From a virus: 44,692 bases of DNA. The position numbers and the translations under genes are program-made. Within the stretch, counting starts at the first letter, position 1. Every line of letters begins with the position of its first letter. A model generated the notes under the pieces. That model was given only the letters and a program-made list of their open reading frames with translations, was not told where the DNA came from and searched no databases. Where the stretch lies: positions 1-44,692 of IMG/VR virus record IMGVR_UViG_3300006033_000041. One strand, written 5' to 3'. Shown here piece by piece: positions 3,110 to 42,600 of this stretch.

Positions 3110-3118
3110 GGAAATCTC

Positions 3119-8398: not shown

Positions 8399-9814
8399 AT
8401 GTCTCGCATGTACAACGATCCGGCTGGTGGTTCCCCGTCGACCACGGGTTCCCAGATGAACACCCAGTATTACCAGAAGCAGGCACTGGTTGAACTGAAG
8501 AAGACGCAGTTCTTCTCCCAGCTCGCCGATGTCACCTCCATGCCGAAGAACTTCGGCAAGAAGATCAAGCGTTACCACTACCTGCCGCTGCTCGATGACG
8601 CCAACCTGAACGACCAGGGCATCGATGCCGCTGGTGCTGTTATCAGCTCCTCGACCTATTCGGTCACCCTGCCGCGTGCCAACCTGGTTGTGGCCAATGC
8701 TGCCAAGGTCGCTGCTGCTGCTGCCATCAATGACAATACCTCTGGTGTTGTCGCCACTGCCGGTGCTGACGGTTCGGCTGGTGCTGGTTTTGCTACCCTG
8801 ACGGTTGTTGGTGGTACTGTCTTCAACGTCTCCACTGATGTCAAGGCCGCTGCCATTGTCGCCCTGAATCTCGGTGCTTCCTCTACCCAGCGTTCGGGCA
8901 ACCTCTACGGTTCGTCCAAGGACGTGGGTTCGATCTCTGGCAAGCTCCCGGCGCTGTCGGAAACCGGTGGTCGCGTGAACCGTGTCGGCTTCAAGCGCAA
9001 GGAAATTGAAGGCTCCTTCGAGAAGTTCGGCTTCTTCGATGAGTACACCAAGGAATCCCTGGACTTCGACTCCGATGCCGAGCTGCAGACGCACATCCAC
9101 CGTGAAATGCTGAACGGTGCGGGCGAGATGACCGAAGACGCTCTCCAGATCGACTTGCTGAACGCTGCTGGCGTGATCAAGTTCGCCGGCAATGCCACGC
9201 AGAACTCGGAACTCGGTGTCGATGACCTGGTGTCCTATGGCGATCTGATGCGCCTGTCCATTGACCTGGACAACAACCGTACCCCCAAGGGCATCACGGC
9301 CATCACCGGTAGCCGCATGGTCGATACCAAGACCATTCCTTCTGCCCGTGTCATGTACATGGGTTCGGAACTCCTGCCGACCGTGAAGGCAATGAAGGAT
9401 CTGCACAACAACCCGGCCTTCGTTTCGGTCGAGAAGTACGCTGCAGGCGGTAACACCGTGACCGGCGAAGTCGGTGCCATCGATCAATGGCGTCTGGTTG
9501 TCGTTCCGGAAATGATGAAGTGGGCTGGTGCTGGTGCTGACGCCACGGCTGATGCAACCTGCTACGAAACCGGTGGTCGTTTCGACGTGTTCCCGATGCT
9601 GGCTGTCGGTGACCAATCGTTCACGACCATTGGCTTCCAGACGGATGGCAAGTCGGTCAAGTTCGTCATCACCCACAAGGCTCCAGGTGAAGCCACGGCG
9701 GATCGCAGTGATCCGTATGGCGAAACGGGCTTCATGTCGATCAAGTGGTACTACGGGTTCATGTCCCTGCGTCCCGAGCGTATCGGCCTCATCAAGACCG
9801 TCGCCAAGCTGTAA
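8399..9814 (+). CDS. major capsid protein, N4-gp56 family
   Basis: This 471-residue protein forms the icosahedral shell. The HK97-fold family of N4 gp56 is indicated by the N-terminal QALVELKKTQFFSQLADV, the GKKIKRYHYLPLLDD segment, and FVSVEKYAAGGNTVTGEVG followed by WRLVVVPEM near the C-terminal half. Compared with N4 (about 400 residues) it has an Ala/Gly-rich insertion around residues 85-165. Codon use is strongly biased (GC-rich third positions), as expected for the most abundant protein. GAGGT precedes the ATG by eight bases. A hairpin follows the gene. Confidence 0.93.
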   Translation: MSRMYNDPAGGSPSTTGSQMNTQYYQKQALVELKKTQFFSQLADVTSMPKNFGKKIKRYHYLPLLDDANLNDQGIDAAGAVISSSTYSVTLPRANLVVANAAKVAAAAAINDNTSGVVATAGADGSAGAGFATLTVVGGTVFNVSTDVKAAAIVALNLGASSTQRSGNLYGSSKDVGSISGKLPALSETGGRVNRVGFKRKEIEGSFEKFGFFDEYTKESLDFDSDAELQTHIHREMLNGAGEMTEDALQIDLLNAAGVIKFAGNATQNSELGVDDLVSYGDLMRLSIDLDNNRTPKGITAITGSRMVDTKTIPSARVMYMGSELLPTVKAMKDLHNNPAFVSVEKYAAGGNTVTGEVGAIDQWRLVVVPEMMKWAGAGADATADATCYETGGRFDVFPMLAVGDQSFTTIGFQTDGKSVKFVITHKAPGEATADRSDPYGETGFMSIKWYYGFMSLRPERIGLIKTVAKL

Positions 9815-13942: not shown

Positions 13943-14005
13943 AAGTACCCTAGCTGTTGGGAACATTTCCAGTAAAATGCCCCCATGAACAACAAGGAGC
14001 GTGTC

Positions 14006-14449
14006 ATGAACAAGATCGTCTGTGCTGTGTTGGTTGGTTTGGTCCTGGTAGGGTGTGCGTCTACACGCCCAACAATGCCAGACCAAAACTATGTGACCTT
14101 GGCAGGTAGATGGCTGATGGTGGACTACTGTGCCTGGAAAGGGTGGATGGACGCTGAATCGGCTGCCAAAGGACGCCGGTATATTAATAGTGATATTGCA
14201 TCCTGGACTTATGACTCTGAGCGTTTAAAAAGGGAAGTAGGCATACTACACCCTGAAACGGCAAAGGTGACCCAAGGGGATTGCCGGAGGATGTCAGTAT
14301 CCATCCAGGAAAGATCGCAGCAAATTGCAGATCACAATGCCCAATCTGAGATGCAACAGCGTGAAGTGCAGAACATTATTAACGCTACCAAATCAACCCA
14401 TACCTATTGCAATAAAATAGGTACGCAGGTTTTGTGCAATTCTTTTTAA
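14006..14449 (+). CDS. phage lipoprotein, 147 residues
   Basis: The start at 14006 is preferred over 13985 because AAGGAG lies six bases before it and the product then begins with a standard lipoprotein signal: MNKIVCAVLVGLVLVGC, with the lipobox LVGC and Cys17. The mature protein is polar, with four more cysteines (in DYCAW, GDCRR, TYCNK and VLCNS), and ends in a TYCNKIGTQVLCNSF motif. It is expected in the outer or inner membrane, facing the periplasm. Small phage lipoproteins often block receptor function or superinfection (for example T5 Llp), so exclusion is a reasonable guess, not shown here. Its place inside the virion operon is unusual. Confidence 0.8.
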   Translation: MNKIVCAVLVGLVLVGCASTRPTMPDQNYVTLAGRWLMVDYCAWKGWMDAESAAKGRRYINSDIASWTYDSERLKREVGILHPETAKVTQGDCRRMSVSIQERSQQIADHNAQSEMQQREVQNIINATKSTHTYCNKIGTQVLCNSF

Positions 14450-14463
14450 TGAAGGGAAATTAA

Positions 14464-14949
14464 ATGGCGGGCATTCGTGCACCAAATTCTCTGCTGGATT
14501 TTCCAGGAAGTAACTCGGACTATTCCAGTTTTTCGTCTTATGGGATTCCACCATATTCTCCCCCCAACGATTACTCGTTGGGTATGTCGAGGCTCCCTAC
14601 TCAAATTGGTCCCGCAGGTTCGGGATCTGCTGCGATTGCACGCCCTGATTTCTTCAGTTGGGATGGGTTCTTCGGGGGGAAGAATGGTGACGAGACTTCC
14701 TTCAATGGCTGGGGTGGGTCGGCGCTTGGGGCACTGCAGGGGCTTGGAAATGCCTACATGGGTATGCGCCAATACGGATTGGCAAAGGATCAATTCAAAT
14801 TCCAGAAACAAGCATTTGAAAAGAACTTCAATGTGCAAAAAGGCCTCACTAACGCCCGCCTTGAAGATCGTCAACGTGCCCGCGTAGCTGCCAACCCGAA
14901 TGCGTATGAGTCGGTAGGAGACTACATGAACAAGTACGGGATCAAATAA
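14464..14949 (+). CDS. virion-associated protein, 161 residues
   Basis: AAGGG precedes the ATG at good spacing. The N-terminal half is Ser/Gly/Pro-rich and probably flexible (about 1-75). The C-terminal half is helical: GALQGLGNAYMGMRQYGLA, then DQFKFQKQAFEKNF, and the ending NARLEDRQRARVAANP with VGDYMNKYGI. This C-terminal pattern is shared by small internal proteins in many podovirus structural operons. It lies between the lipoprotein and the 437-residue protein and is separated from the latter by two bases, which suggests joint synthesis. Confidence 0.65.
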   Translation: MAGIRAPNSLLDFPGSNSDYSSFSSYGIPPYSPPNDYSLGMSRLPTQIGPAGSGSAAIARPDFFSWDGFFGGKNGDETSFNGWGGSALGALQGLGNAYMGMRQYGLAKDQFKFQKQAFEKNFNVQKGLTNARLEDRQRARVAANPNAYESVGDYMNKYGIK

Positions 14950-14951
14950 TT

Positions 14952-16265
14952 ATGGCTCAACCAATCACTTGGCGTAATGTGGATGCCCCGTCTTTTGGCG
15001 AGGCAAGCCGCATGATGTCTCAGGCTCAAGTTGGCATCAACAGTGGCTTCGGATCTCTTCAGGATATTTTGAAGAAGGAACAGGCTACTGCTGATGCCAA
15101 CTGGCAAGTACAACGAGACAACAACACCCAGGCTTTCCTGGATTCAATCAACCAGTATCGAACGGCAGAAGAGTTTCAGGCTGCCCTGACATCCGGTGCT
15201 CTGGATGTCGGGCAATACGGAGGTCAGATTGATCGTGCTGCGGCGCGGGCAGCCCTCGATGGCCGCCTCTCGATCTTGCAGGACCGCACTACCAAGGCAA
15301 ACCAGTTTGCTGATCAAGCGGCGGAACGTGATGCGCGTCCTATCGTGGATCGCCTGTCCACGATGGCCTTGTCGGAAGACAAGGATGTGCGCCGTAGTGC
15401 CAAGGAAGCACTTGGGATCTACGCCAGTAATGGCATGGTTCCCAAGGCAGCCGAAATCGCAGGCAAGCTGGATCAATCGGATCGCATGTTCGTTGAGCGT
15501 GGGCAAGCGGATACCGAGTTTGTTCGTAAGGGGGAGAAGCACTCCAGCGACTTGCTTTCTGCCGCAGCGGATCGGCAGTACAAGAGTGCCCTTGCCAGCA
15601 ATGCTCGTTCTGCTGGTTCCTCCGCTACCTCTACATTGAAGAAAGAGCTTGCTGCATCTAAAGCTCAAAATGCAGCGGCGGACCTACTGATTAAAAACAG
15701 TCCTCTGGATGCTGGGACTATGGATACTTACGCGGGACAAAAAGCGTTTGAAGAGGGGCTTAGTAAGCTCGGGCTTAAACCAGAACAGGTCAAGAGTATT
15801 CGTGAGTCGTATGCTAAAGAATTCAAAAATGGGGTTCTTGTTGGTTATGATGAAAAGAACGAAGAAGTACGCATTGGTTTGCCAGTATCTACTGCCCTCG
15901 CTGGGGCACGTGATTCCGCAGACAACTGGTACACCCCAAACTTTTTGAATGTATCCAACCAAGGCAAAAGTGCTGTCAAAAACCTGAAGGAGCAAATTGG
16001 AAGTCCTACTTATGTAAATTCTCTGCAGCAAGCACTTCAAGCGCAAGGTATGCGGTACCGTCCCCTTAACCAACCCGCGAACACACAATTTACCAAGCAA
16101 TCACCCTCTGCAGATGGAGCTGCATTGGTGAATAGAGCGATTGAATCTCGAAAAGCTAAAGCTGCTGCTAATATGACTCCCGAGGAATTGCAGATTGCAC
16201 GTACAACTGGGGTTGTTCCCTATCGAGTTCAACGCATCCTTTTGGAGGAAGATGAAGAGCAGTAA
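14952..16265 (+). CDS. putative internal virion protein, 437 residues
   Basis: This is a hydrophilic, mostly helical protein with a Gln/Ala-rich N-terminal half (MAQPITWRNVDAPSF start) and a Lys/Ala-rich second half. It resembles internal virion (ejection) proteins in composition and place: it is the last gene before the giant vRNAP gene, as in N4 gene order. No lytic transglycosylase or protease motif is visible. The ribosome-binding site is weak, so coupling to the gene two bases upstream is likely. A strong terminator follows. Confidence 0.65.
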   Translation: MAQPITWRNVDAPSFGEASRMMSQAQVGINSGFGSLQDILKKEQATADANWQVQRDNNTQAFLDSINQYRTAEEFQAALTSGALDVGQYGGQIDRAAARAALDGRLSILQDRTTKANQFADQAAERDARPIVDRLSTMALSEDKDVRRSAKEALGIYASNGMVPKAAEIAGKLDQSDRMFVERGQADTEFVRKGEKHSSDLLSAAADRQYKSALASNARSAGSSATSTLKKELAASKAQNAAADLLIKNSPLDAGTMDTYAGQKAFEEGLSKLGLKPEQVKSIRESYAKEFKNGVLVGYDEKNEEVRIGLPVSTALAGARDSADNWYTPNFLNVSNQGKSAVKNLKEQIGSPTYVNSLQQALQAQGMRYRPLNQPANTQFTKQSPSADGAALVNRAIESRKAKAAANMTPEELQIARTTGVVPYRVQRILLEEDEEQ

Positions 16266-16352: not shown

Positions 16353-19300
16353 ATGGCCGATTTTGATATGGACGCTTATTTGCGGCGTCGCCCTTTCAAT
16401 CCGAATAACACTGATCGGTTACAAGGATTGGAGGCGGCTACTCAATCCAAAATCCAGGCATTATCTCAATACAGTGTTGAACGTCAGGCACAAAAGGAAG
16501 CCAACAAGGATTCTTGGGTCAGCAAGAATGATTTGGACCCTGATTCTGTTTCTGGTTCCCTGGTGAATCTGGGTGCTGCTGCTACCTACGGTGCGGGACG
16601 CTTTGCTGGCTTTGTGGCTTCTTTGCCCCAATCAATCAATGCACTGATCCATGAAGGCAAGGTTGATCCGGAAGACTGGAATGCCTACAACCGCATGGTT
16701 GAAGGTACAGCATCTCCAGAAGACATGTCCCGTCTTCAGCGTGATACCAACGATACGAATGCCCATATAGAAATGGGTAAAACCACGGTATTGGAGCGGA
16801 TCAATCGAGGAATTGAATCTCGTCAAACGGCCCGAGACATCAATGAAAAAACGAACATCCCTGAGATTCTCCATAACGAGAAGCGTCAGGAATTTCGTAA
16901 GGCACTAGGCCAAGGCTTCGATGAGAAGTGGGGCCAGGTACAACAAGGCATGGATGCCCTTTCCCGTGGCGAGGATGGCCAAGGATGGAGTGATATGGCC
17001 TCCGGTGTTGGCAAGCTCACTGCAGGGGCAGGGAAGGCTGTTGTAAACAACCCGATGGCTGCTTTTGAATACGCAGTCGAGAATGCTCCCCAGCTGCTTG
17101 TTGGTTTGGCTGGTAAGGGTGGACAGGTGTTGATGGGTGCCTCCAATGCAGGCTACGGGGCAGACCTTTTCAACCAAGGTGTTGAGAAGGTGCAAAAGGA
17201 TACTGGTGGGCAAATGCCAACCAGTGAAGTCCGTACTGAGATTGGTGGTGCAGCTTTTAGAGCCGCAGCAGCAGAACACGCATCTGATATGTTTGGTCTG
17301 GCTTTGATGAAGCCTGCTGCCAAGGCAATTACTGATCCTGTGCGTACTGGCTTCAAGCAATCTCTCCTCAATGTGGCTAAGGCAGGTGTAGGTGGTGTTG
17401 CTTCTGAGGCACCCACTGAAGGCTATCAGACCTACGAAGAAGGTAATGCGACACTGAATCCTGCATCTGCCAAGGACATCTACGAGGGTGCTGTCATCGG
17501 TGGTGTGTCAGGCGGTACGTTATCTGGCGGGGGGCGTGCTGTAGCTGAACTGGCTCAGGCTACTCCGGAACATGCCCAGAAGCGAGCCACGGAAGCGAAG
17601 GCACAGGAAGATCAGGTCACTGCGATGATCGACAACGATCCTTCTGCTTACCTGGATCGTGAGAGTAAATCCTACGATCCCATCAAGGCAGCACAGGTAT
17701 TGTTTGGCCATGCCCAGCTGGAATCGGCTACCCCTGAAGTTCGTCAACAGAATGTCGAGAAAGCACACGACATCATTGCTGGTTTGGAAACCCAACGAGG
17801 GGAACTCCAAGCCAAGATGGACCAGCTGACGCCGGAAGGTATTCAGTCCCGGATTGATGGCCTGAATACGCGGATCGCCGATGCCCCGCCTGCACTGGCT
17901 TCCCGTATTCAAGAAATGGTGACTTCCCTTGAAGGTGATCTTGCTGCCTTCGATCCCAAGAGCGTGGATCAGAAAGCAGTGAAAGCACTCCAGGCTCAAA
18001 TGGCCACGGTGGATCGGCAGCTTGCTGAAACCACAAAGCTGCGGGATCAACTTGCTGTTGAAACCAAGCCCAAGGAAGAAGACGTTGATGATGCGGTTGA
18101 GCAGGCTGATGCAGCCATCGATGCTTCGAAGCCGGAAACCAGTACGACTGCCAAGGCAGCGGTGGATCATGTGGTTAGCCTGGCCATGGCCCACCCGGAT
18201 AGTTTCTCGGATGACCATCTGAATCGCCTGGTTCAAAACCAAAGCAATGGATTGAGCGCACCACAACGTACCTTCCTGCGTACCTTGTCGGAAGCACGCA
18301 TTGCCGAGAATGCCTTGAAGACGATGGGCATTGTCGAGAATGAAGTGATGAACGGTGATCCAGCCAAGAACCAGCTGGGCATCAAGGATTACCGTCAACG
18401 GATGCAGGCAGCGATTGTGTCTCGCAACGAAGAGAAGGCCGCCACTGCTGTGCACATGCTCGGCAAGTTCGCCAATGCCCACAAGCAGAAGCTGCGGTTC
18501 TTCATGGATCAGTTCGCCAAGGCATCGAAGGCCGGGGCGATCAATGTGGTGCCGAGCAATCAGGGCTGGCAGCTCGCACCGACCCAGGATGTCTCGGCAG
18601 CAGGCCAAGCAGCCAATCGCAAGTTGGGTGGGATGACCATTCACAAGGGATCGGCAAAGCTGATCCGCCAGATCCAGGCCGAAGCCAAAGCGTTGGGGGC
18701 ATCCCATCAGCAGCTCCAGGCTGCCATGGCGTTGCGTTTCGCTACGGAAGATCAGCAGGCTGTGCCTCCGGTCGCGCAAACTGCAGTAGACCAGCCTGGT
18801 TCAGCTGTAGCAGTTAACTCCAGTCAACCTAGTCAAGCGCAGGGAACAGCGCCTGATTCGACTCCAGTTGATAAGTCAGTAACCCCTCAGTCAACTGAAG
18901 GGCAAACCCAGTATAAAGTGGACAGTACCGTAGACCCGGTATCCGAGGCAACTGCACCGGCCAAGCCGAAGAAGCCGCGTACCCGGATTGAGCCGAAGGA
19001 TTACCAGAACATCGTCGGATCCATCCTCAAGGTCACAGATGGTAAAGGTATTGCTCCTTCTCTAGCTTTAGATCTTCTGGGAGAAAGCGCCTCTAAGCAT
19101 TTGGGGAATCTTCGTCATATCGTTAGATCCGATAGCACTTGGAAGTTGGAAGGGGGTAAGTTGATTGAGTATCTCCGTGATGAGGGGTACACCCAACTCA
19201 ACACCGAAGAAGACCTCAAGGATCTATTGGCAGATCACATGAATGGTATTCCGGCTCGTCCTGCAGAAGTCATGCTGGAAGAAAAGGCCAAAGCCATTGA

Positions 19301-22300
19301 GCGTGAAGCCAAGAAGAAAGAACAGGCAGAGCGTCGTGCCATCAATGCTGAAGCCAAGGAAAAGGGCATCAAGCAGGCACGGGGCAAGCGTACCCTGGAC
19401 GATGTGCTGGCTGATCTGGCTTTGTGGGGAGAACAACAGAGTGCTCTGGAAGCAGTAGAGGAGCGTATCTCCATTCAGGCAGAGGCTGCGATGTATGAAG
19501 CAGCTGACTCTGCTGAGATCATGAAAGAACTGGCCGAAGTCGTCGGCTACACCGAAGAGGAAATTGAACGTGTCCGCATCGAAAATCGAGAGTCTGAAGA
19601 ACGCACTCCTGAAGCTGCCGAAGGAACGACGCAAGAAGGTCGTGGAGATCGGGCGGATGGTGGCCAAGCTGAAGAAGGAAAAGGAACAGATGCAGAAGCA
19701 GGCAAGCTCCCCCTCTTCACTCAAGTAGTCGATATCGCTGGCAAGAAGTTTGCCGAGGTCTTCAAGGACATCAACCTGATTGCACACAACCTGGTGCAGA
19801 AGGTTGGCAAGGACAAGGCTACCCAACGTCCGTTGGTGGCTGCCAAGGATTTCCTGAGTCAGTGGAATGACAAGACGCTCGACATCAAGGCATTGGAAGC
19901 CTTTGTCGGCGAGCCGCTGACGCATGTGCAGGAAAGTTTCCTGGAGCACTTTCGCACGACGGCAAAAGGCTGGGAAGAGTCGATCACTGCGAATTTGGTC
20001 AAAGGCCAAGTGGTAGCAGGGATCAAGTACAAGCAGGCCATTAAGGAAGCACGGGGCAACAAGGCAGCTCTGGCCAAGATCGAGGAAGAATTCAAGGGCA
20101 AGAAGCCGGGGGATGTCACCTACGAAGAGTGGAAGCGCTTCACCAACCCGATCCAGTTCCTGATCGAGCTGAACAAATCGGGCAAGGCCGACACGGAAGA
20201 GAACGTCAAGACGGCGATTGCCGCAGCGGCGTTTATGTACGTGGCCGAGAATGCCAAGGCTCCCCAGGTGACCTCCCCGGAGAGGGTCAAGGATATGTTC
20301 GGTGTCAGCGAGTACGACACTATCGGCGATGCCCTGTACAACAGGGTAAGCCGTCTGGGTAGCCCGGAGCGTTCGACCATCATTTCCATGGGTCAGCGGG
20401 TCACTCAGGCACTGGGCTTGTCGGCCAAGAACGAGGCACATCAGGATTTCCTGGCTCGCCTTGAGGCTGACCTGGGTGCCCATGTGATGAAGCTCCTGGT
20501 GGATACCGGCGTAATGGAGCGTACCGTGGTTTCCCGTCAGGAGATTTCTGCTGGGTTGAACCACCTGGAAAAGCATAATGCTGCCAAGCAGGGTGACATG
20601 GCTTTCCTGCGCATGGTGCGTTCGGAAGGCAAGACGGCCCGGGATCGCAATCTGAATCCAATGGCAGATCGGATCTCGACCATGGCCAAGGGCACGCAAG
20701 GTGTGCTCGGCAAGCTGTTCGGGGTGGAAGCACAGGTGAAGGAGCCGTCCTGGGAGCCGATCAAGGCAGCGCAGCAGACGACGGCCAACACGGATCAGCA
20801 GATCCCTGACTTCTTGAAGAAGATCATCCAGCACGAAAACAGTGTGGCCAACTATGTCCGTGGGGATGTCTGGACGCTGCTGCAGGGTCTGGGGGAAGAA
20901 GCCTTCCTGGAGATGGCCGGGTACATCCATCCGGATGAAGCTACCATGCACCACCTGTCGATCACGGCAGCCGAGGTGAGCAATGAAGCCCTGCGTCGTG
21001 AGCTGGGGGCTGCCATCGACTACTTCGGTACGCTGGAACGGAAAGAAGAGGAAGGCGGTAGTCCGCTGGGTCTGAAGCAGCCGTTGTACCTCGCCCACTC
21101 CGTCTGGAAGCAGCAGCGGGTGGGTATCGATGGTGTGATTAGCCCGCAAGCGAGCAAGATCCACCGGTGGATGCTTACTCGTAGCGACTGGCTTACCAAA
21201 GTAAATAGTACCGATACCGACATGATGAACAGCTTCTTCCTGCGGGTGGGAGAGGGTCTGGGCGTCAAGACGGACAAGCAGGGCAATGCCGCCTCTTTGC
21301 CGTACATCACCGAGATGTTCAACACGAAGTCCGAGGACAAGGAGACACGCGAGAAAGCAGTAGTCCTGCAAGCTGCGGTGGATGCCCTGATCCGTTCCCG
21401 TCAACCGGGAGCCGAGATGTCGGCTGAAGACAGCCAGGCAATCCTGGCCGGGGTAGCCAAGGGCGGTGAGAAGATGCACTCGATGGATGCCCTGATCGCC
21501 ATGGCGAATTACCAGGAAGCCAAGGCCAAGGCAGCGGGCGCAGCCTTCACCTTCGATGTGCAGATGATGGGTGAGGTCGATGGCGTAACCAACGGCCCCA
21601 TGCTCTCCCATCTGTTGCTGGGTGCTGGCAAGGATGCCCAAGGTTTGCTGGTTCGCCTGAATCGGGGCGGCTTCTTCCAGGAAGGCTCTGGCTTCTCGAA
21701 CTACAACGTGTGGCGCGGCGAAGCAGGCCATACCGACCTGTACGAATCGACGATTGGTGCCGTCATCAAGCACATCAACGGTCAGACGGAAAAGGCAGCA
21801 ACCTTTGCCCGTCTGCAGAAGATCACCGGGATGCTCTCCAACAAGGATACCGGTGCCGTTGAGAAGGCAGGGCGTAACATCATCAAGACCCCTTTGACCG
21901 CCATGCTGTTCGGTTCAACCGTGCAAGGAGCGGTGGATTCCATGTTCCGGGACTTCATTGCCAAGTCCTATGAAGGGTTCGAAGCCATTGCCAAAATGAA
22001 GCCAGAGGATAATCCGGAAGCCGCTTTGGTGGCCTACGTTGATAACCTGAATGCGCTCCTTATGGAAGCAACCCTGATTACCGAGCGTATTCCTCATGGT
22101 TCGCTGGAGGAGTTCCTGACCACGTTCGAATTTTCGGATACCCAGACCAAGGCACTGGAAGAAGTGTTCAATGCCAACCTGGGTGAGTCGGTCCAGGCCA
22201 CCATGGAAACGGCGTATGCCCCGTTCCTGGCAATGCGTAACGTGATCAACGACACGGCCAATGCCACCTTCGGTCTGTACCACGCGGCATACCAGGGTAT

Positions 22301-25300
22301 CCGCCAGACCGTGATCAATGAACTGATCGCCGCTGGTGAAATCACCGTGGGCAAGGATGGCAAGCCGTTGCACGACTTGACCCTGGAACAGGAAAAGCAG
22401 ATCGATGCTCGGGTGGCTGACCTGAACCCGGAAGTGCAAACCTATATGTCCAAGCAGTCGAAGAATGCCAAGGGATCGGGACTGCACATTTCGAAGTCTT
22501 CGCGGCAGCTCTCTCAGGAAAAGGCGTACCAGAACGTTTCCCAGTTCGGTCGCCCCTTCCCGGTACCCAAGGGTGAGTTCGGTTCCCTGTCCCTGCGTAA
22601 CTCGGCCTACCAGCGCATCCTGGCTATGCCCGGTGTCGCCATGGTGCCGATGATGATTCACTCACTGGACAGCGCGATCTCGCACATAGCCCTGATGGGA
22701 CGCCAGGTACTGAACGTCCATGACGCACATGGGACTGGCTTGAAGGACTTCATCCAGACGGCCCAAGCACTAAACCAGGCAACCTGGAAGGCAGTGCTCG
22801 GTTACTCCCCGGCAGCAGAAATGCGGGATGCTTTCCGCAATACTCTGTTCGGGATGGATGCTCTGTTGAAGTCGGGGGAAAACACCGAAGCGGTGATCGC
22901 CGAGATGAAGCAGTACCTCGATGCCTTGGGTGAGAAATACGGCACCTGGGTGGATGGTGTGAAGGTTCCCATGGCCACCAAGGATGTGCTGGTAAAAGTC
23001 GCTTCCGCGATGTTCCATGCGGCTGACCGGGCTGACCGGATCAAGTACGAAACCATGTCGCAGCTGCAGCATGTGGACCAGTACGCTCTGGAAGGTGGGC
23101 AATACGATGTGACCGATCCCGACCGGGCAGAGGCAGCACGCCTCCTCAAGCAAGTGGGCGATGGTTCCATGCCGGGTAGCGTGTGGAACGCCATCGACCG
23201 GATCAATGCAGTGGTGCTCGGTATCAAGCAGGGTCCGATCACCTCGCCGTATGGGGCACTGGCAGCCAAGGGGGCGAAAGCCAACATCCCGTCTGATTCC
23301 ACGCTGGTCCGCTTCTTCGAAGACAAGGGCACGCGCACCGCAGGCGAAGTGATTGCCCAGATCAAGGGCAAGATTAGTCCGGCCAACAAGGTGCTCCTGA
23401 AGAAGATCGAAGCGTTGATCGATTCGAAGTTGCCGGTCCAGATGATCACGGCACGCACGCCGGATGGCGGTACCTTGAGCAAGGAAGCCAATGCTCGGGG
23501 CTGGTTCGCCTACAAGGGTGATACCAAGGCAGTCTATGTGCTCAGTCCGGAATTTAAGATGTCTGGTTTGACCCCGGATCTCCTGGTTCATGAGCTGTTG
23601 CACGCTGCACTCGCCAAGACGATCAACCACCCGAATACCCCGGAAGCCAAGGCACTGGTGAAGTCCCTGGAGCAGATCAAGGCAGCAGTGGAAGCACACC
23701 TCGATGCCCATCCGGAACTGAAAGCCAAGTACCCGATGCAGCTCGATGTGCATGAGCTGGTGTCCTGGGGCATGTCGGATCTGGATTTCCAGCGGGATGT
23801 GCTTACCCAGATTCCCCTGGGCAAGTCCTCGGTAAGCAACAAGGTTATGTCGGCCATGATGGGGTTCATCAAGGCGATTTCGAAGTTCCTTGGTTTGCCG
23901 TTGACGGTCAAGGATGCTTCCGGGCAGGAAGTGGATAATGCGCTGGCTGCCTTGATCCAGGATGTTTCGGGCCTGTTTGAACAAGCCAAGAATCCGGATA
24001 ACGGGATGGCGACGGATACCTTCTCGGCCACCATGGAAGCCGTGCAGAACATGACCACGTTCGATGTCTATGAGGCATTGGACGAAGGCAAGGTTGCACC
24101 GACTTTCAGTGCCCATCTGCAGGGATTGCTGGGGAGCATCGCCAACAAGCTCCACGGCCCGTATGGCACGTTCAAGCATCTGGTGGAAAGCCAGATCGCC
24201 AGCACGCCGAAGGATCTGTGGACGCAGGCCCAAGGACGGAGCCACGCCCCGTTTGGCAGCGCAGCCCTGGCTGCCGGGATTCCGATGAACGACCAAGTGG
24301 CGTTCGTGCTGGAACAGGTGGAAGCCTCGGTTCAAGGTGCTCTGGAAGCCAACACGGGCGCAGCCCATGATGTGCGGATTGAATTGACCAAGCTCTACCA
24401 GGAAGCCCGTGCCAAGCTGGAAAACAGTACGGTACTCTCCCAGGATCTTCGAGATTTCTTGTTCAAGATGGATATGGGGCAAGGTGGGCGTATTCGCCAC
24501 CTTGCTCGATTTGCTGCGATGGGTCTGGCCCATCCGGAAGTAAATGCTGCCCTGCAGATCGCTACGGAGCGTGCCCCGATCACGGTTACAGGTAGCTTTG
24601 CACACCGTCTGGAAGCACTCTTCCAAAAGGTGCTGGAATGGTTCAATGGCCGCCTCACCCATACCTTTGCCGGCCAGCGTGCCGATGCCAAGTTGCACTC
24701 GCTGGTGACCCAGTTGGTTGAGATCGAAGCCAAGCGCAAAGAACCCATCCTACAACGGGCGAGTGCACTGGACTTCGTGGAGAACTCCCTGAAGCAAGGG
24801 GCCGCCAACCTGAAGGGCAAGGTTGAGCAGTTCGGGAAGTCGGATTGGGTACGTAACCGCAAGAGCAACATCGTGCGAGCAGCAGGAGCCACCGTCAGCA
24901 TGGTGGCCGGGGAGCGTACTGAAGCGGTCATGAACCACATCCAGGCTGTCCGTGACCGTCAGATGAACCAGGGCTTTGGTCTGGCCATGGGCCTCATCAA
25001 CGAGATCCGGGGCATGAACGACGGGAACAAGATGTTCCACCGTCTGATTCGTGAAGCCAAGCTGCGTGAAGGTGTCCGTGAGGATTTGATTACCCACACC
25101 GGCAACATCGCTCTGGAGAGCTTTGCCAATCAGGGCAAGGATCTGACCCAGGGTGACAAGGCCGCGATCACGGCAGGATTGCTCCGGGCCGATATCGCAT
25201 CCCTCCTCGACCATCATTCGATGGACGAGATCACGTCTTTGTTGCGTGACCCGGCTGCACTGGATCAGGAGATCGCTCGGCTGGAAGGGCTGCTTGCCCC

Positions 25301-27452
25301 GTATCCCAAGACTCGGGGGTACTACGAGCGGTACGCCAAGAATCTCGGCTACAAGCTGGCTACTGGGAAGATCAAGGGGGCACACACCATGATGAATGCA
25401 GCCAATATCGCCAGCCTGGCCGGTACGGGTCTGGAGCATTCTGTGGCCCCTGCCGATGTCGCTGCGGCTACCCAGATCATTGATCAGCTGGCTTCCCTCT
25501 ACGCCTATCGCTATACCAAACCAGGCCACAAAGCTGCCCTGGTGAATATCCTGGCAACGGAAGCTGCCCGGGGTAATGAGAGTGGGGTGGAGATGGTGCT
25601 GAAGCTGCACAAGTCGCTGCAGCAGAATTCCAAGGAACGCCTGTTCGAAAGCTCGGAAGCCCTGATGATGAAGGGCTACACCCCCGAGATCTACGACCCC
25701 AAGAAGGAAGTGGTTGTGGCGACGGAGCAGGACGGCGCGAAGCTGGAAGCCCAGGGCTACGTCAAGGGCAAGCAAGTGTCCGTCGATCCCCTGGATCCGG
25801 ATCGGAATCCCCGATTTGTGTACAAGCGCGATGGGGGCGGTCTGCGTCCCTGGCTCTCGGGGATCTTCTCCTATACCGGAGAAACGGCCAAGGGTTCGCG
25901 CAGCAAGACGGACAATGTGCAAAACCTGGCACAGTGGAAAGCCAACAAGCAGGATCTGCGTCGGATGGCATCTGGCAAGCGGGCTGCCCTGCAGCGGGAA
26001 TTCCGTCATGATCCGAATTACGATCCAGACAAGGTGAAAGACAACTTCGCGGCCCCGGTGTTGAATCCGCAAGGGGATGTAGTGGATTACCGCTACCTGA
26101 TGTCGGAAGACAACAAGGATGATCTGCTCAACCGGGATAGTCGTTTTGACAAGGTACTCGGCTTCTTCGCCGGCAGTATCTACGACAAGGAATCCACCAA
26201 GGAGAGCAACCGCAAGGCGGTCCAGGCACTCTATGATCAGTACCAGGCTGACTTTGCGATGCGCTCGGAATCCTATCGTCGTGTGGGTCCGGACAGTAAT
26301 GATGAAGAATTGCAGGGTATCTACCGGATGCTGCCGGAAGACACCAAGCAGGCGATCAAGGACATCTGGGGCACCGAGCACATGATGGTGCGGAGCGACC
26401 TGATGGACATCAACTTCGGCTACCGCAAGATCAGTATGACCGATGCGTTCCACAAGGAACACAAGAATGTCGCCGAGCAACTGTTCACGGGACTCTGGAC
26501 GCACGTATGGGGCGAGAAGGCGGAATACAACCTGCGCCGTATCGAAGATGTGTGGCAGGAGATCGCGACCGAAACCAAGGAGATCCTGGTCATCAAGAAC
26601 CTGAGCACCTTGATCGGTAACGTGGGGAGCAACATCTCGCTGCTGTATTGGCAGGGTGTTCCGCTCAAGGACATGGCCCGGTATCACCGCATTGCACTCA
26701 AGGGTGTAAGCAACTACCGTGCCGACTCGGCTGCATTGATTGATCTGGAAACCAAACTGGCAGCGAATTACATCACCACCAGCCGGCAGGAGATGGAACG
26801 GGAAATCCTTCGTCTGAAGGATGCCCTGGCCCATAACCCGGTGAAGGAGCTGATCGATGCCGGCTTGATGCCGTCCATCGTGGAAGACGTATCTCCTGAT
26901 GACGATATGTACTCGTACAAGTCTCGTCTGGTGCATTACGTCGAAGGACACACCTCCTCGGTGAACAAGCAGGTGATGTCTGCTGCTCGGACGGTGTATA
27001 TGGCCAAGGACACGAAGATGTACCAAGCCCTTCGCCATGCCACTCAACTCAGTGACTTCGTGGCGCGTTACGCCCTGTACGCTCATGTCACCACTCGTCG
27101 TCAGAATCCCCTGAGCAAAGAGGATGCAGTTCAACTGGCTTCGGATTCGTTTGTGAACTATGACTTGCCGTCACATCGCAAGCTGCAGTACATGAACGAC
27201 ATGGGATTTGTCCGGTTCACCAAGTATTACCTGCGGATTCAGAAGGTGATCGCCAATTTGTATGCAGAGAATCCGGGACGAGCAATGGCCCTGTTGGCTA
27301 CTGAGGCGTTCTTCACTCAAGCACCGATGTTGACGGACTCTGGATTTACGCATCGGCTAGGGAATAACCCGTTCAGTTTGGGTGCACTGGATTATCCGGG
27401 TGTATTGGATGAGCTGGCGACCATCAAGCTGGGAGAGAAGTTCATTCCATAA
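16353..27452 (+). CDS. giant virion-associated RNA polymerase (N4 vRNAP-like) with peptidase-like motif
   Basis: This 3,699-residue protein resembles N4 gp50 (about 3,500 residues), which is packaged in the head, injected with the DNA and transcribes early genes. The T7-like polymerase motifs are visible. Motif A is GEVDGVTNGP with Asp1743. Motif B has Arg1841, Lys1845 and Phe1853-Gly1854 with exactly the T7 spacing. IHSLDS starts at 2102, and motif C is VHDAHG with Asp2124. The distances Asp-Lys 102 and Lys-Asp 279 are close to N4 mini-vRNAP as I recall it (111 and 281). Phe replaces the usual Tyr in motif B. Low-complexity linkers near 800-885 and 1080-1115 precede the polymerase module. 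After it lies VHELLHA (His2413, Glu2414, His2417) and DVHELVSWG near 2465, like a zinc peptidase. The remaining third is helical and probably serves packaging or injection. Confidence 0.9.
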   Translation: MADFDMDAYLRRRPFNPNNTDRLQGLEAATQSKIQALSQYSVERQAQKEANKDSWVSKNDLDPDSVSGSLVNLGAAATYGAGRFAGFVASLPQSINALIHEGKVDPEDWNAYNRMVEGTASPEDMSRLQRDTNDTNAHIEMGKTTVLERINRGIESRQTARDINEKTNIPEILHNEKRQEFRKALGQGFDEKWGQVQQGMDALSRGEDGQGWSDMASGVGKLTAGAGKAVVNNPMAAFEYAVENAPQLLVGLAGKGGQVLMGASNAGYGADLFNQGVEKVQKDTGGQMPTSEVRTEIGGAAFRAAAAEHASDMFGLALMKPAAKAITDPVRTGFKQSLLNVAKAGVGGVASEAPTEGYQTYEEGNATLNPASAKDIYEGAVIGGVSGGTLSGGGRAVAELAQATPEHAQKRATEAKAQEDQVTAMIDNDPSAYLDRESKSYDPIKAAQVLFGHAQLESATPEVRQQNVEKAHDIIAGLETQRGELQAKMDQLTPEGIQSRIDGLNTRIADAPPALASRIQEMVTSLEGDLAAFDPKSVDQKAVKALQAQMATVDRQLAETTKLRDQLAVETKPKEEDVDDAVEQADAAIDASKPETSTTAKAAVDHVVSLAMAHPDSFSDDHLNRLVQNQSNGLSAPQRTFLRTLSEARIAENALKTMGIVENEVMNGDPAKNQLGIKDYRQRMQAAIVSRNEEKAATAVHMLGKFANAHKQKLRFFMDQFAKASKAGAINVVPSNQGWQLAPTQDVSAAGQAANRKLGGMTIHKGSAKLIRQIQAEAKALGASHQQLQAAMALRFATEDQQAVPPVAQTAVDQPGSAVAVNSSQPSQAQGTAPDSTPVDKSVTPQSTEGQTQYKVDSTVDPVSEATAPAKPKKPRTRIEPKDYQNIVGSILKVTDGKGIAPSLALDLLGESASKHLGNLRHIVRSDSTWKLEGGKLIEYLRDEGYTQLNTEEDLKDLLADHMNGIPARPAEVMLEEKAKAIEREAKKKEQAERRAINAEAKEKGIKQARGKRTLDDVLADLALWGEQQSALEAVEERISIQAEAAMYEAADSAEIMKELAEVVGYTEEEIERVRIENRESEERTPEAAEGTTQEGRGDRADGGQAEEGKGTDAEAGKLPLFTQVVDIAGKKFAEVFKDINLIAHNLVQKVGKDKATQRPLVAAKDFLSQWNDKTLDIKALEAFVGEPLTHVQESFLEHFRTTAKGWEESITANLVKGQVVAGIKYKQAIKEARGNKAALAKIEEEFKGKKPGDVTYEEWKRFTNPIQFLIELNKSGKADTEENVKTAIAAAAFMYVAENAKAPQVTSPERVKDMFGVSEYDTIGDALYNRVSRLGSPERSTIISMGQRVTQALGLSAKNEAHQDFLARLEADLGAHVMKLLVDTGVMERTVVSRQEISAGLNHLEKHNAAKQGDMAFLRMVRSEGKTARDRNLNPMADRISTMAKGTQGVLGKLFGVEAQVKEPSWEPIKAAQQTTANTDQQIPDFLKKIIQHENSVANYVRGDVWTLLQGLGEEAFLEMAGYIHPDEATMHHLSITAAEVSNEALRRELGAAIDYFGTLERKEEEGGSPLGLKQPLYLAHSVWKQQRVGIDGVISPQASKIHRWMLTRSDWLTKVNSTDTDMMNSFFLRVGEGLGVKTDKQGNAASLPYITEMFNTKSEDKETREKAVVLQAAVDALIRSRQPGAEMSAEDSQAILAGVAKGGEKMHSMDALIAMANYQEAKAKAAGAAFTFDVQMMGEVDGVTNGPMLSHLLLGAGKDAQGLLVRLNRGGFFQEGSGFSNYNVWRGEAGHTDLYESTIGAVIKHINGQTEKAATFARLQKITGMLSNKDTGAVEKAGRNIIKTPLTAMLFGSTVQGAVDSMFRDFIAKSYEGFEAIAKMKPEDNPEAALVAYVDNLNALLMEATLITERIPHGSLEEFLTTFEFSDTQTKALEEVFNANLGESVQATMETAYAPFLAMRNVINDTANATFGLYHAAYQGIRQTVINELIAAGEITVGKDGKPLHDLTLEQEKQIDARVADLNPEVQTYMSKQSKNAKGSGLHISKSSRQLSQEKAYQNVSQFGRPFPVPKGEFGSLSLRNSAYQRILAMPGVAMVPMMIHSLDSAISHIALMGRQVLNVHDAHGTGLKDFIQTAQALNQATWKAVLGYSPAAEMRDAFRNTLFGMDALLKSGENTEAVIAEMKQYLDALGEKYGTWVDGVKVPMATKDVLVKVASAMFHAADRADRIKYETMSQLQHVDQYALEGGQYDVTDPDRAEAARLLKQVGDGSMPGSVWNAIDRINAVVLGIKQGPITSPYGALAAKGAKANIPSDSTLVRFFEDKGTRTAGEVIAQIKGKISPANKVLLKKIEALIDSKLPVQMITARTPDGGTLSKEANARGWFAYKGDTKAVYVLSPEFKMSGLTPDLLVHELLHAALAKTINHPNTPEAKALVKSLEQIKAAVEAHLDAHPELKAKYPMQLDVHELVSWGMSDLDFQRDVLTQIPLGKSSVSNKVMSAMMGFIKAISKFLGLPLTVKDASGQEVDNALAALIQDVSGLFEQAKNPDNGMATDTFSATMEAVQNMTTFDVYEALDEGKVAPTFSAHLQGLLGSIANKLHGPYGTFKHLVESQIASTPKDLWTQAQGRSHAPFGSAALAAGIPMNDQVAFVLEQVEASVQGALEANTGAAHDVRIELTKLYQEARAKLENSTVLSQDLRDFLFKMDMGQGGRIRHLARFAAMGLAHPEVNAALQIATERAPITVTGSFAHRLEALFQKVLEWFNGRLTHTFAGQRADAKLHSLVTQLVEIEAKRKEPILQRASALDFVENSLKQGAANLKGKVEQFGKSDWVRNRKSNIVRAAGATVSMVAGERTEAVMNHIQAVRDRQMNQGFGLAMGLINEIRGMNDGNKMFHRLIREAKLREGVREDLITHTGNIALESFANQGKDLTQGDKAAITAGLLRADIASLLDHHSMDEITSLLRDPAALDQEIARLEGLLAPYPKTRGYYERYAKNLGYKLATGKIKGAHTMMNAANIASLAGTGLEHSVAPADVAAATQIIDQLASLYAYRYTKPGHKAALVNILATEAARGNESGVEMVLKLHKSLQQNSKERLFESSEALMMKGYTPEIYDPKKEVVVATEQDGAKLEAQGYVKGKQVSVDPLDPDRNPRFVYKRDGGGLRPWLSGIFSYTGETAKGSRSKTDNVQNLAQWKANKQDLRRMASGKRAALQREFRHDPNYDPDKVKDNFAAPVLNPQGDVVDYRYLMSEDNKDDLLNRDSRFDKVLGFFAGSIYDKESTKESNRKAVQALYDQYQADFAMRSESYRRVGPDSNDEELQGIYRMLPEDTKQAIKDIWGTEHMMVRSDLMDINFGYRKISMTDAFHKEHKNVAEQLFTGLWTHVWGEKAEYNLRRIEDVWQEIATETKEILVIKNLSTLIGNVGSNISLLYWQGVPLKDMARYHRIALKGVSNYRADSAALIDLETKLAANYITTSRQEMEREILRLKDALAHNPVKELIDAGLMPSIVEDVSPDDDMYSYKSRLVHYVEGHTSSVNKQVMSAARTVYMAKDTKMYQALRHATQLSDFVARYALYAHVTTRRQNPLSKEDAVQLASDSFVNYDLPSHRKLQYMNDMGFVRFTKYYLRIQKVIANLYAENPGRAMALLATEAFFTQAPMLTDSGFTHRLGNNPFSLGALDYPGVLDELATIKLGEKFIP

Positions 27453-29718: not shown

Positions 29719-29793
29719 TGGAGCGGGTAGGCGGGATCGAACCGTCGTAACCGGAGTGGAAGTCCGGTGCTCTACCGATTGAGCTATACCCGC
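29719..29793 (-). tRNA. tRNA-Gly (anticodon UCC), CCA encoded
   Basis: A full cloverleaf is present on the minus strand. The acceptor stem is GCGGGTA/TACCCGC, the D-arm is GCTC/GAGC, and the anticodon stem is CCGGA/TCCGG with loop CTTCCAC, giving anticodon TCC. The T-loop is TTCGATC, the discriminator base is T, and CCA is encoded. The GCGGG acceptor and T73 are standard glycine identity features. The T-stem has one A-C mismatch. It would read GGA and GGG codons, which are less used in the GC-rich capsid genes than in the AT-richer ones. It is transcribed behind SSB and closed by a terminator. Confidence 0.95.
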
Positions 29794-30694: not shown

Positions 30695-31171
30695 TTACTG
30701 GCGTCCGTGGTTTTTGTGGAATCCATGGGTCTGCTCGGCTTGTTTCCGTGCAGCTACAGCATCTTCAAAGGTATCGAAACACCCTAAAGATCGTTGTTTC
30801 GTATCCACGGTGATATACGCACGCCACTTTGACGTTTGTTTGTGGAACGACACTCCCGGTACTTTGGTAGTGGAATTGCTGAAGCATTTCATGTTGCGGT
30901 GGTTGTCCTGTTTAGGGACTTCCCGCAGATTGCTGATCCGGTTATCTGCCCGATCCCCATTGATGTGATCGATGAAGTCAGGCCAATAGCCATTGGTAAT
31001 GCACCACGCCAATCTATGCGCGTAGTAGTGTTTGCTTCTGAAGCCAATCACTAAATATCCCAATTTTTTATGTAGACATCCTGCAACTTTCCCGTTGAAA
31101 CGGGTAGTTTTCCAGGTGAATACTCCGGAAACTGGGTCATAGTTCAGGGCGGCACAAACGTCATTCACCAT
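30695..31171 (-). CDS. HNH homing-type endonuclease with AP2 domain (copy 1)
   Basis: This 158-residue protein has the HNH core AHRLAW (51-56), DFIDHINGDRADNRISNLRE (65-84) with Asp68, His69, Asn71 and Asn77, and a C-terminal AP2-type DNA-binding region (about 104-148), ending FHKNHGRQ. Free-standing enzymes of this kind are selfish elements that cut related phage genomes lacking them. It lies between the Sak4-like and SSB genes, and its start overlaps the end of the former by 11 bases. Base composition is more A+T-rich than its neighbours, which fits later arrival. Copy 2 lies at 35640-36131. Confidence 0.92.
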   Translation of the reverse strand: MVNDVCAALNYDPVSGVFTWKTTRFNGKVAGCLHKKLGYLVIGFRSKHYYAHRLAWCITNGYWPDFIDHINGDRADNRISNLREVPKQDNHRNMKCFSNSTTKVPGVSFHKQTSKWRAYITVDTKQRSLGCFDTFEDAVAARKQAEQTHGFHKNHGRQ

Positions 31172-34668: not shown

Positions 34669-35640
34669 TTAAAGGATGAGATCCCCTGACGCAATCAGTG
34701 CATCTTTTTGGGTACAGACGACGAAAGCAGAACAGTATTTGCAGGCCATGACCTGCCCAGGCTGCTCAACGACGATGCCGACGTTGCCGTCTTCGATGGC
34801 ACGGAGTTGTGCATCGTGGTAGTTGTCGAAGTTCTTGGTACTGCGGCTACGCTTTTCGGGGTTCTTGTAATACTTGAACACCGGTTCGCTACGCCACAGA
34901 TCCTCATCACTGCACAGGGGGATTTGATCTTCCGGGGCATCCCAATACTGTTCGACTTGGCCGAGCTTGCGTTTGACGAAGGCATCGGTTTCCGGCACCG
35001 GCTTCAAAGGCAGAATGCGTTGCATGATCCGCTGTTGTGGATATTTCGGATCCTGCATTGCCTTGGCTTTCGACCAGTCAGTGAAGATGAATTGGATGGC
35101 CATCTCATCTTTGGTGATCAGCTTCGGATTCAGCCAGCGATAGATGCTCCCCTGCCAGGCGTGCTTTTCGTCATTGTTGTGACTCATGGCAGAGTAAGTC
35201 GATGTGGATTTGAAATCTTCCACACGACCATCACCAACGAAGTCGTACTTGCCTGACACCAAGAACTTGCCAACTTGCTTGTGGGCACGCTGTTCCAGGT
35301 AGATGGGAATCAGCCCATCCGTCAGTTCTTCTGGTTTGGGATTGATGCGGATCTTCTCGATCACCCTTTTGGGGTAACCCAACTGATCCAACGCAATCCG
35401 GTAGTTGTCCTTCCAGGCACGTTCGATGGCATCGTGAATGGCGGTTCCCATGCGCGAAGGCACCAGATTGATCAGTTCCGTAGGGGTCACATCTTCCGGA
35501 ACTCGGGCGCTGAGAATGATCTGGCGCAAAGGTTTGATCAGTGCAGTGGCAGAGATGGTGTTGCTGTCGTGATCGTAAAAATCACTCGCTAAAAACACTG
35601 CCAATGACAGAGGTACGGATGATGTATTGGAGTATTTCAT
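34669..35640 (-). CDS. PD-(D/E)XK nuclease, N4 gp44-like, with Cys cluster
   Basis: This 323-residue protein has the RecB/Cas4-type nuclease motifs GTAIHDAIE (65-73, His69), GKYDFVG (130-136, Asp133) and VEDFKST (140-146, Asp142, Lys144), then QGSIYRWL (163-170). Near the C-terminus it has CKYCSAFVVC (Cys300, 303, 309), with Cys243 upstream. The CxxCx5C spacing equals that of Fe-S clusters in AddB and Cas4 nucleases. It probably processes DNA ends during replication or recombination. Its start overlaps the stop of the HNH gene upstream (TAATG), and its AAGGA lies inside that gene. Confidence 0.85.
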   Translation of the reverse strand: MKYSNTSSVPLSLAVFLASDFYDHDSNTISATALIKPLRQIILSARVPEDVTPTELINLVPSRMGTAIHDAIERAWKDNYRIALDQLGYPKRVIEKIRINPKPEELTDGLIPIYLEQRAHKQVGKFLVSGKYDFVGDGRVEDFKSTSTYSAMSHNNDEKHAWQGSIYRWLNPKLITKDEMAIQFIFTDWSKAKAMQDPKYPQQRIMQRILPLKPVPETDAFVKRKLGQVEQYWDAPEDQIPLCSDEDLWRSEPVFKYYKNPEKRSRSTKNFDNYHDAQLRAIEDGNVGIVVEQPGQVMACKYCSAFVVCTQKDALIASGDLIL

Positions 35641-36131
35641 TAAGAAGTCCTTCCGTGGTTTTGGTGATATCCAAGGGATTTTTCAGCCTCTTTTCTGGCT
35701 GAAGCTGCATCAGAGATGCGGGCGAAATACCCAATAAAGCGAGGCTTACTCTCAACGTAAATACGTGCCATCCACTTTTGTTTTCGCTTATCCCAACAAA
35801 CACCCACAACCCCAGAGGAGTTGTTTTTTGATTTCGCGGTGTTTCTTTGGTTATCGGTAACAGATACTTCCCGGAGATTGCACCAACGAGTGTCTGAACG
35901 AATTCCGTTTATGTGATCAACCTGTTCAGCAGGATCCCTTCCTGTCATGTACAGCACGGCCAAACGATGGGCGTAATACAGTTTTTTACGTACACGAATC
36001 TGTACATACCCGTTGCGGCTATATCCTGCTTTGGTTCCTGCAGGTATTCGCGAAGATGCTTGGATTTTCCAAAAGAAATCTCCTGAATCTGGGTTGTATT
36101 CCAGAATATGTTTTAACTCAGACTGATTCAT
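35640..36131 (-). CDS. HNH homing-type endonuclease with AP2 domain (copy 2)
   Basis: This 163-residue protein has AHRLAVLY (54-61), EQVDHINGIRSD (69-80; Asp72, His73, Asn75), CNLRE (84-88) and an AP2-type C-terminal region (about 106-150), ending YHQNHGRTS. It shares its layout and the terminal NHGR with copy 1 (30695-31171), but the two are far from identical, so they are related rather than recent duplicates. It is fitted tightly before the gp44-like nuclease gene with a one-base overlap. It is A+T-richer than the neighbouring replication genes. Confidence 0.92.
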   Translation of the reverse strand: MNQSELKHILEYNPDSGDFFWKIQASSRIPAGTKAGYSRNGYVQIRVRKKLYYAHRLAVLYMTGRDPAEQVDHINGIRSDTRWCNLREVSVTDNQRNTAKSKNNSSGVVGVCWDKRKQKWMARIYVESKPRFIGYFARISDAASARKEAEKSLGYHQNHGRTS

Positions 36132-39587: not shown

Positions 39588-39660
39588 GGTTTTCCTTGGT
39601 TAATGTGGTTGATTGAATCTACGTGTAAACTCCGTTTTATTGAATAACTGGAGTTGGACG
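39588..39660. promoter_or_regulatory. divergent intergenic region
   Basis: This 73-base gap separates the leftward replication operon from the rightward tail gene, so both promoters may lie here. The minus strand has TTTACA and, 18 bases on, CATTAA; the plus strand shows no clear boxes. GGAG seven bases before 39661 is the ribosome-binding site of the tail gene. Confidence 0.35.
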
Positions 39661-42600
39661 ATGGCTTGCACTGAAATTGTGTGTGGTACTGGGGGTTGGA
39701 CTGGACCAAAACCAGGAGATCCTGATAATAATTCAGTGCTTTCTGCTGATTCCGCCTTTGGGGGGATTTCTGTAAGTTGGCTATTTCCAACCATTAACCC
39801 ACACGCAGTGGCTCACACGTTGGTATTCCGCAGTTTTACTACGGATGGTTCTGTCGCTGAATTTGAAACGGCCACCCAATATATCGTAGTCAATGGTAAC
39901 TACTTTTTTGATCAACTTGATGATCCATCGATCCGCTATACCTACTGGATCCGATTTGTTTCAGTTAATGGAACATACGGAGAGTTGATTGGGCCTGCTT
40001 CAGCATATCCACGTTCGAGTATCCAAGAAACCATTGCAGCTCTGGTGGGTAAAATCGATTCAAGTAAGCTGACTCAGGAACTCAAGACTGAAATTGAGCG
40101 GATACACCTTCTTGACAATAAGATTCTTGAAGAAATTCAAGATCGAATTGCAGCGAATCTTGGTTTGGAAAGTGTCATGGAGGCTACACAAGGTAGCCTG
40201 GATGAAGCTTTTCTCCTGCTTCAACAGGAATCCACCTTACGGGCGGAGGCCGTTGCTGCTTTAGTGAGTGCTTTGCAGACTGAAGTAACTGAGAGAATTT
40301 ATGCTGTGTCTGCTGAAATTCAGGCACGTAACGAGGCGATCAATCAGGAAGCTACTGATCGGAGTGAGGCTATCGTTGCTGAACAACAAGCACGCGCAGC
40401 AGCGATCCAGGCCGAAGCAGAGTCACGTGGTTTGGCTATCAGTCAAGAGGCGTACCAACGTGCACAACTTGCTGATGAAAATGCCACCGCTGTTCTGCAG
40501 TCCGCACTTACGATTCATCAAGAACTGACGAATCGAGCGGAAGATATTGCACTGGCACGGTTTGAGCTGAATGAGAATCTGCAGGCTGGGTTATCGGCAG
40601 AAGCTTCTGCACGCCTGACGTTAGCTGCAGCAGTCTCCGACAATGCGGCTTCGATCCTGTCTGAGCAAACTGCCCGTGCTGATGCCAACTCAGCAATGGC
40701 GCAGGACATTTCAAACCTTGTTGCAACGTCGAATGCAAACGCTGCAGCAATCACGAATGAAGCGACTGTCCGAGCAAATGCTGATTCAGCACTTGCTACT
40801 CAGATCAATGCTTTAGTTGTGTCAGTTGGTAATAACGCTGCCGGGATTGTGACTGAGCAAACGGCCAGAGCAGACGCGGATACCGCCTTGGCCAGTCAGA
40901 TAACGGCACTCACTGCTGCTGTAGATGACAACCTTGCTGCGATTGTTGCAGAGCAAAATGCGCGTGCGGATGGGGATACGGCTGAAGCGACACAACGGAA
41001 TCTGCTGGCAACTCAGATGCGTGGGGGCTACGCAGGCAACGACTTGGCGCAAATCACATCAGGGCTGTTGTACCAAGAGCGTATTGCTCGGGCAACTCAA
41101 GACAGTGCGCTGGCCCAGCAGATCACACTACTGTCTGCCGGGGCAGGGGAGCAATTTGACTGGAAAACCATCTGGTACTTTGACGAAGGTGTTGAAGGCT
41201 GGACAGGAAATGGTACGCCGACCGTAGCGAATGGCTGGCTACGCCCAGCAAACCAGGCATCCAGTGCCCACGTTATCTCACCTACTGGGGTTGCTTCGGA
41301 TGGTAATCAGTATGGTCAAGCCCGACTGCGTATCCGTAAGATCGGTAACCCGGTGTTTGCAGGGTATATCTGGTGGAAGGCTATAGGGGATAGCACTTGG
41401 GAAACCTCACGTAGATTTGCATTGGATGCACCTACCTATGATGCTAATGGTATCGGGCTGATTACTGTCTCTCCAGCATGGGCAATCGAGATTAACCAGA
41501 TCCGGATTGATCTGTCTTCTGTCCAATCGGCGACTGATTATTTTGAAATTGACTGGGTAGCGATTGGCCGTCCTTCTCCTGGGGCGTCATCAGCACAATT
41601 GTTGGAAGAACAAACGACTCGGGCAAGTGCAGATGCTGCCGAGGTATCGGCCCGTGAGGTGTTATCAGCAAAACTCACTGGTACCACTGACCCAGGTAGC
41701 CTAACCCTTGGCACACTGTCTTCTGGCTTGATCTATGATGAGCGCCAGGCTCGGGCGTCCCAAGACTCTGCTTTATCTACGCAGATCACTGGTTTGTCCT
41801 CTACGGTCACGAATAATCACACCACGGCCATGGGGGCGATTTCCACTGAGTCGACCACCCGAGCGACAGCGGATAGTGCCCTGGCAAACCAGATCACAGC
41901 ACTGTCGGCTACGGTCAATTCCAATACTGCAGCGATTACGACAGAACAGGGTGCGCGTGCTAGTGCAGATGCTACTGAAGTCTCTGCGCGTGAAATACTA
42001 GCTACCAAAATGGTAGGGACAACTGATCCAGGCAGTTTGACGCTCGCTACCCTGGCATCCGGATTGCTGTTCGAAGAACGCCAAGCACGGAGCACGCAGG
42101 ATACTGCTATTGCCTCAAGTGTTTCGTCATTACAAGCCACGGTGACGAGTAACTACGACACACTGAATTCGGCGATAACAAGTGAGCAGAACGTAAGAGC
42201 AAATGCTGATTTGGCGGAAGCATCTGCCCGGGAGTCGTTATCCACGAAGATGACTGGATTGACTGATCCGACCTCAGCAGATCTTGGTACCCTGACCAGT
42301 GGCTTGATCTTTGATGAGCGGCAAGCCCGTAGCACAGCAGATTCCGCGATGGCGTCTGAACTTTCTATTCTCGCATCCACGGTAACTACGAATCACACTA
42401 CTGCTCTGGGCGCTATCACTACAGAGTCCAATACCAGAGCAGCTGAAGACGCAGCGAACGCTTCGCAGATCACTAATTTGATGTCAACAACGCGGGCGTT
42501 GGATAAGGATACGGACGATAACGCATGGTCCATCCTAAAAAATGTGCTGACTACAGAGAAGATACACTCGCTGACCCGTGAGACGCTGGCGACGATTCAG

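Follow-up and report, generated by a model that had tools for sequence, protein, structure and literature searches.

We conclude, with a probability of about 0.97, that the open reading frame at 16353..27452 (+) of the window, by which we mean the whole 44,692-base contig analysed here, encodes a Schitoviridae phage protein that is both the virion-packaged RNA polymerase (vRNAP) and an ejection protein, a homologue of N4 gp50. Its product of 3699 amino acids lacks cysteine, and in a profile search PHROG 2206, ‘virion RNA polymerase’, matched residues 58-3693 with E=0, showing that homology to the vRNAP family extends over the whole length of the protein. Additional support comes from the PDB, where a phmmer search matched N4 vRNAP entries alone (best E=6e-52), the first stretch pairing residues 1490-1893 with the N4 polymerase core, and where a profile built from 41 relatives recovered the crystal structures of mini-vRNAP (E=1e-47). 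The Pfam family N4_RNAP_helical scored 19 bits in this protein, below its cut-off of 27 bits. A search of phages at the DNA level with the window returned no match, so that only comparison at the protein level is informative, and here the polymerase region is 33% identical to that of the nearest named phages. We discarded one match to a Gordonia phage near motif C (E ~0.1) as chance, as it sits in a 2.2-kb gene adjoining the portal. The gene is thus a divergent new addition to a well-studied vRNAP family and is already known in kind; no observation spoke against its belonging to this family. With these searches and the predicted fold described below, the identity that the original prediction had proposed for the largest gene of this unannotated contig is confirmed, and the contig is assigned to the Schitoviridae, in which its lineage has no close relative among named phages.

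Fold and catalytic residues of the polymerase domain

The single-subunit RNA polymerase domain, equivalent to the N4 mini-vRNAP, occupies residues 1130-2290 (19740..23222, +), and an AlphaFold2 model of this region based on 41 aligned sequences (pLDDT 90.2, pTM 0.88) gives the middle third of the protein the fold of a single-subunit RNA polymerase. Comparison of a predicted structure with the N4 mini-vRNAP had been suggested as a check on the identification, and we found that the fold is indeed that of the N4 enzyme: the top Foldseek matches were N4 mini-vRNAP and full-length N4 vRNAP (E ~1e-31 to 1e-29, TM by query length 0.70-0.73), with the mitochondrial and T7 RNA polymerases (E ~1e-11 and weaker, TM 0.3-0.4) coming next at a clear distance, and hhalign aligned the domain with N4 at 100% probability over 1025 columns.

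Every catalytic residue of the N4 enzyme has its counterpart here. Motif A (DGVTNG, 21579..21596, +) carries the catalytic D1743, equivalent to N4 D559 and invariant among the 41 aligned sequences, which in the model (numbered as residue minus 1129) ends the palm strand 610-614. In motif B (21873..21914, +) R1841, K1845 and F1853, followed by Gly, lie within RNIIKTPLTAMLFG, which starts at 21873, and correspond to N4 R666, K670 and Y678; the first two are located in the O helix (709-723) and F1853 just past it. Motif C (VHDAHG, 22716..22733, +) supplies the catalytic D2124, equivalent to D951 in the IFDG of N4, in a turn between strands 991-993 and 996-1000, and IHSLD is found at residue 2102. 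These pairings, together with that of R1589 (21117..21119, +) with N4 R424, the arginine of the T/DxxGR motif, were recovered by hhalign as well as by alignment, and the catalytic residues are essentially invariant across 110 vRNAP family sequences, some of which are redundant. Moreover, K1845 and D2124 are 279 residues apart, as against 281 for K670 and D951 in the N4 record itself, so that both this distance and the motifs, all of them at the residues originally named, stand as predicted. Motif B alone (Rx3Kx7[YF]G) arose in 96 of 2000 shuffles of the 3699-residue protein and is weak evidence when taken by itself, while the ordered A-B-C set arose in none of 2000; with a PHROG match at E=0, a PDB match at E=6e-52 and a fold TM of about 0.7, however, chance is irrelevant for the motifs.

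Along motif C the branch that contains the window's protein has HDA, as do several relatives with Tyr at the O-helix position, and N4 and its near kin have FDG. The HDA form is nearer to the HD motif of T7-type enzymes than is FDG, as might be expected if a single-subunit polymerase of T7 type (Autographiviridae) or of another non-N4 kind had been fused into a structural gene, but this explanation is refuted by the ranking of N4 vRNAP far ahead of all others by both structure and sequence and by the whole-length match to PHROG 2206, and we give it virtually no weight. We also considered whether the protein might be a relic, a vRNAP homologue retained purely for ejection whose polymerase domain no longer makes RNA. 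The absence of the Tyr hydroxyl at F1853 would fit such a loss, as would the state of the T/DxxGR motif, which reads WKQQR here, with the T/D and G lost and the Arg alone kept. Nevertheless, the reading frame is intact over 3699 codons, the catalytic D1743, K1845 and D2124 are conserved in the sampled relatives, and the T7 Y639F and Syn5 Y564F enzymes, which have the same Tyr-to-Phe substitution, are active RNA polymerases (PMC4538805). We therefore regard a relic as highly improbable, and the enzyme with Phe is most likely still a working RNA polymerase.

Comparison with N4 gp50 and its mini-vRNAP (PDB 2PO4, 3C2P, 3C3L and 9PNQ) shows a common fold, the same catalytic Asp/Arg/Lys/Asp set with a similar Lys-to-Asp distance, an HExxH subdomain, C2 homology, a complete lack of cysteine and a shared gene order, whereas core identity is only about 20%, Phe replaces Y678, motif C has HDA in place of FDG and the promoter-contact residues of N4 are mostly not conserved. 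Closer in sequence are the enzymes of the cultured Pseudomonas phages LUZ7, LIT1 and DEV (Migulavirinae), which have the same ejection operon and, where we checked, the same Phe (LUZ7 and LIT1), HDAHG motif C and lack of cysteine (both LUZ7), although their cores are about 33-38% identical to ours and they form a separate, well-supported branch. The most similar proteins, at 68-72% identity and also with Phe, come from two uncultured fragments, IMGVR_UViG_3300044615_000882 (L002) and 3300044629_000853 (L003), the second of which has the same upstream genes as the window; the vRNAP gene extends past both stretches.

Phenylalanine at the O-helix tyrosine position

The replacement of the usual O-helix Tyr by Phe had been singled out as a notable change. 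It is true of the sequence, but we found it to be clade-wide and in print since 2010, when ‘Y678F’ was given for N4-like Pseudomonas phages (PMC3715699). In fact, the position equivalent to N4 Y678 is exclusively Phe or Tyr wherever it is covered in the 110 retrieved family sequences (some redundant), with 64 Phe and 31 Tyr among 95 distinct relatives, counts that are not family-wide frequencies since the relatives were gathered by similarity to the window. Tyr is therefore not a defining feature of the vRNAP family. On the tree Phe and Tyr have interchanged at least 7 times, five of these changes being forced by well-supported branches, and 30 of the 32 members of the group that contains the window have Phe. 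Among cultured phages Phe is found in LUZ7, LIT1, PEV2, KPP21, Littlefix and phCDa, and Tyr in N4, VBP47, Pokken, XC38, phiA41 and the Rhizobium and Sulfitobacter phages (the naming of some IMG/VR rows being inferred). Judged from these alignments, F1853 is a genuine, previously noted change that is not special to the window's phage, and Phe is an old and common state of one large vRNAP branch.

What the Phe does to the enzyme is suggested by engineered counterparts, as T7 Y639F and Syn5 RNA polymerase Y564F alter the equivalent site by motif B alignment, although those changes were engineered while that of the window is natural and old. In the T7 and Syn5 enzymes the substitution lowers discrimination against 2'-modified substrates (PMC4538805), and enzymes with Phe might perhaps discriminate less against 2'-deoxy substrates; the authors of the 2010 study guessed at an effect opposite to lowered discrimination (PMC3715699). 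The same engineered enzymes could be taken to mean that Phe marks a shift towards the use of deoxynucleotides, for example in primer or DNA synthesis at entry. We consider this very unlikely, given that Phe and Tyr interchange several times in the family, that a search for sites co-varying with them gave no signal beyond shared ancestry over the 5 to 7 independent changes, and that the literature yielded no functional data for such a role and no direct test of a natural Phe-type vRNAP, only the 2010 authors' guess in the opposite direction (PMC3715699). We can tentatively speculate that the large, old branch to which this phage belongs uses a natural equivalent of the engineered Tyr-to-Phe enzymes, one that selects less strictly for ribose in the opening minutes of infection and may also read promoters in a distinct way, a reading that we hold to be possible though on balance doubtful. 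Our data extend the 2010 remark in that Phe is commoner than Tyr in the branch sampled and that there have been several switches between the two, and since Phe is both common and repeatedly switched, a test of ribose selection in natural Phe-type enzymes would be worthwhile. Such an enzyme could be useful in making 2'-modified RNA.

Ejection, promoter contacts and the gene neighbourhood

In N4 (PMC4496689, PMC12633501) and DEV (PMC10925440) the polymerase is packaged in few copies and ejected with two channel-forming proteins, after which it transcribes the early genes; the N4 enzyme does so from hairpins that supercoiling by gyrase extrudes from the DNA (PMC4496689, PMC12633501). By analogy with N4, several copies of the window's vRNAP would be packaged in the head and would exit through the tail ahead of the DNA in the company of two small ejection proteins that form a channel, and in the host the enzyme would start early transcription, probably from hairpin promoters, and help to draw the genome in. 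The anatomy for packaging, ejection and transcription is present, with the exception of the promoter side. Both C-terminal parts of the N4 protein are found: the HELLHA at residue 2413 (23589..23606, +) is an HExxH motif equivalent to the HELVHA of N4 subdomain C1, which was described together with the structure of full-length N4 vRNAP (PMC12633501), and a helical region at 24837..27299 (+) corresponds to the C2 subdomain, with phmmer aligning residues 2829-3649 to N4 2647-3448. On the promoter side, most of the N4 hairpin contacts listed in PMC4496689 are not conserved (K114 to E, R119 to K, W129 to K, K267 to N and D901 to L by hhalign, the N-terminal alignment being weak), with R904 and K849 kept, and promoter recognition may therefore differ from that of N4.

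None of the 3699 residues is a cysteine, against about 27 expected from the other coding sequences of the window. The N4 and LUZ7 vRNAPs likewise have none, and 88 of 109 relative loci, many of them encoding partial proteins, are cysteine-free, so that the feature is common but not universal; it has been noted for the LUZ7 and LIT1 enzymes, where a tentative connection was drawn with transit through the tail or periplasm (PMC3715699). Two ejection proteins are encoded just upstream: that at 14952..16265 (+; 437 aa) is homologous to LUZ7 ORF74 (E=2e-19) and N4 gp51 (E=2e-6 for a stretch found by tblastn), and that at 14464..14949 (+; 161 aa) to gp52 of LUZ7 (E=7e-22) and the 16.5-kDa gp52 of N4 (E=1e-10). 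Both are without cysteine, as are N4 gp51 and gp52 and LUZ7 gp52 and ORF74, and the missing cysteine may thus mark the whole ejected set and not the vRNAP alone.

The + strand encodes, in order, terminase, portal, a protein annotated as tape measure, the major head protein, gp53-, gp52- and gp51-like proteins and the vRNAP, which is the arrangement of N4 and LUZ7 and agrees with the expectation that the polymerase gene would come last in an N4-like structural block. The - strand carries genes for SSB, a Sak4-like protein, primase, exonuclease and ribonucleotide reductase. Among the ORFs tested on the contig there was no RNAPII gene and no early region, and the contig is therefore a partial genome, a Schitoviridae fragment with N4 gene order.

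Several further features of this neighbourhood were observed. Between the gp53- and gp52-like genes lies an ORF (13985-14449, +; 154 aa) with 6 Cys and a lipoprotein-like start (LVGCAS) that has no PHROG match and a 50% identical homologue at the equivalent place in L003; N4 and LUZ7 have no annotated gene there. The major head protein (8399-9814, +; 471 aa) aligns with those of LUZ7 and others as two pieces with ~83% coverage, pointing to some 80 inserted residues, for which the alanine/glycine-rich stretch around residues 95-180 is a candidate. A giant tail-fibre-like ORF (39613-44692, +; at least 1693 aa) matches several PHROG tail families and runs off the contig end. Finally, the replication block contains two HNH endonuclease genes, both phrog_99 and possibly homing-type insertions (30695-31171 and 35640-36131, both -), and a tRNA-Gly (TCC) gene at 29719-29793 (-).
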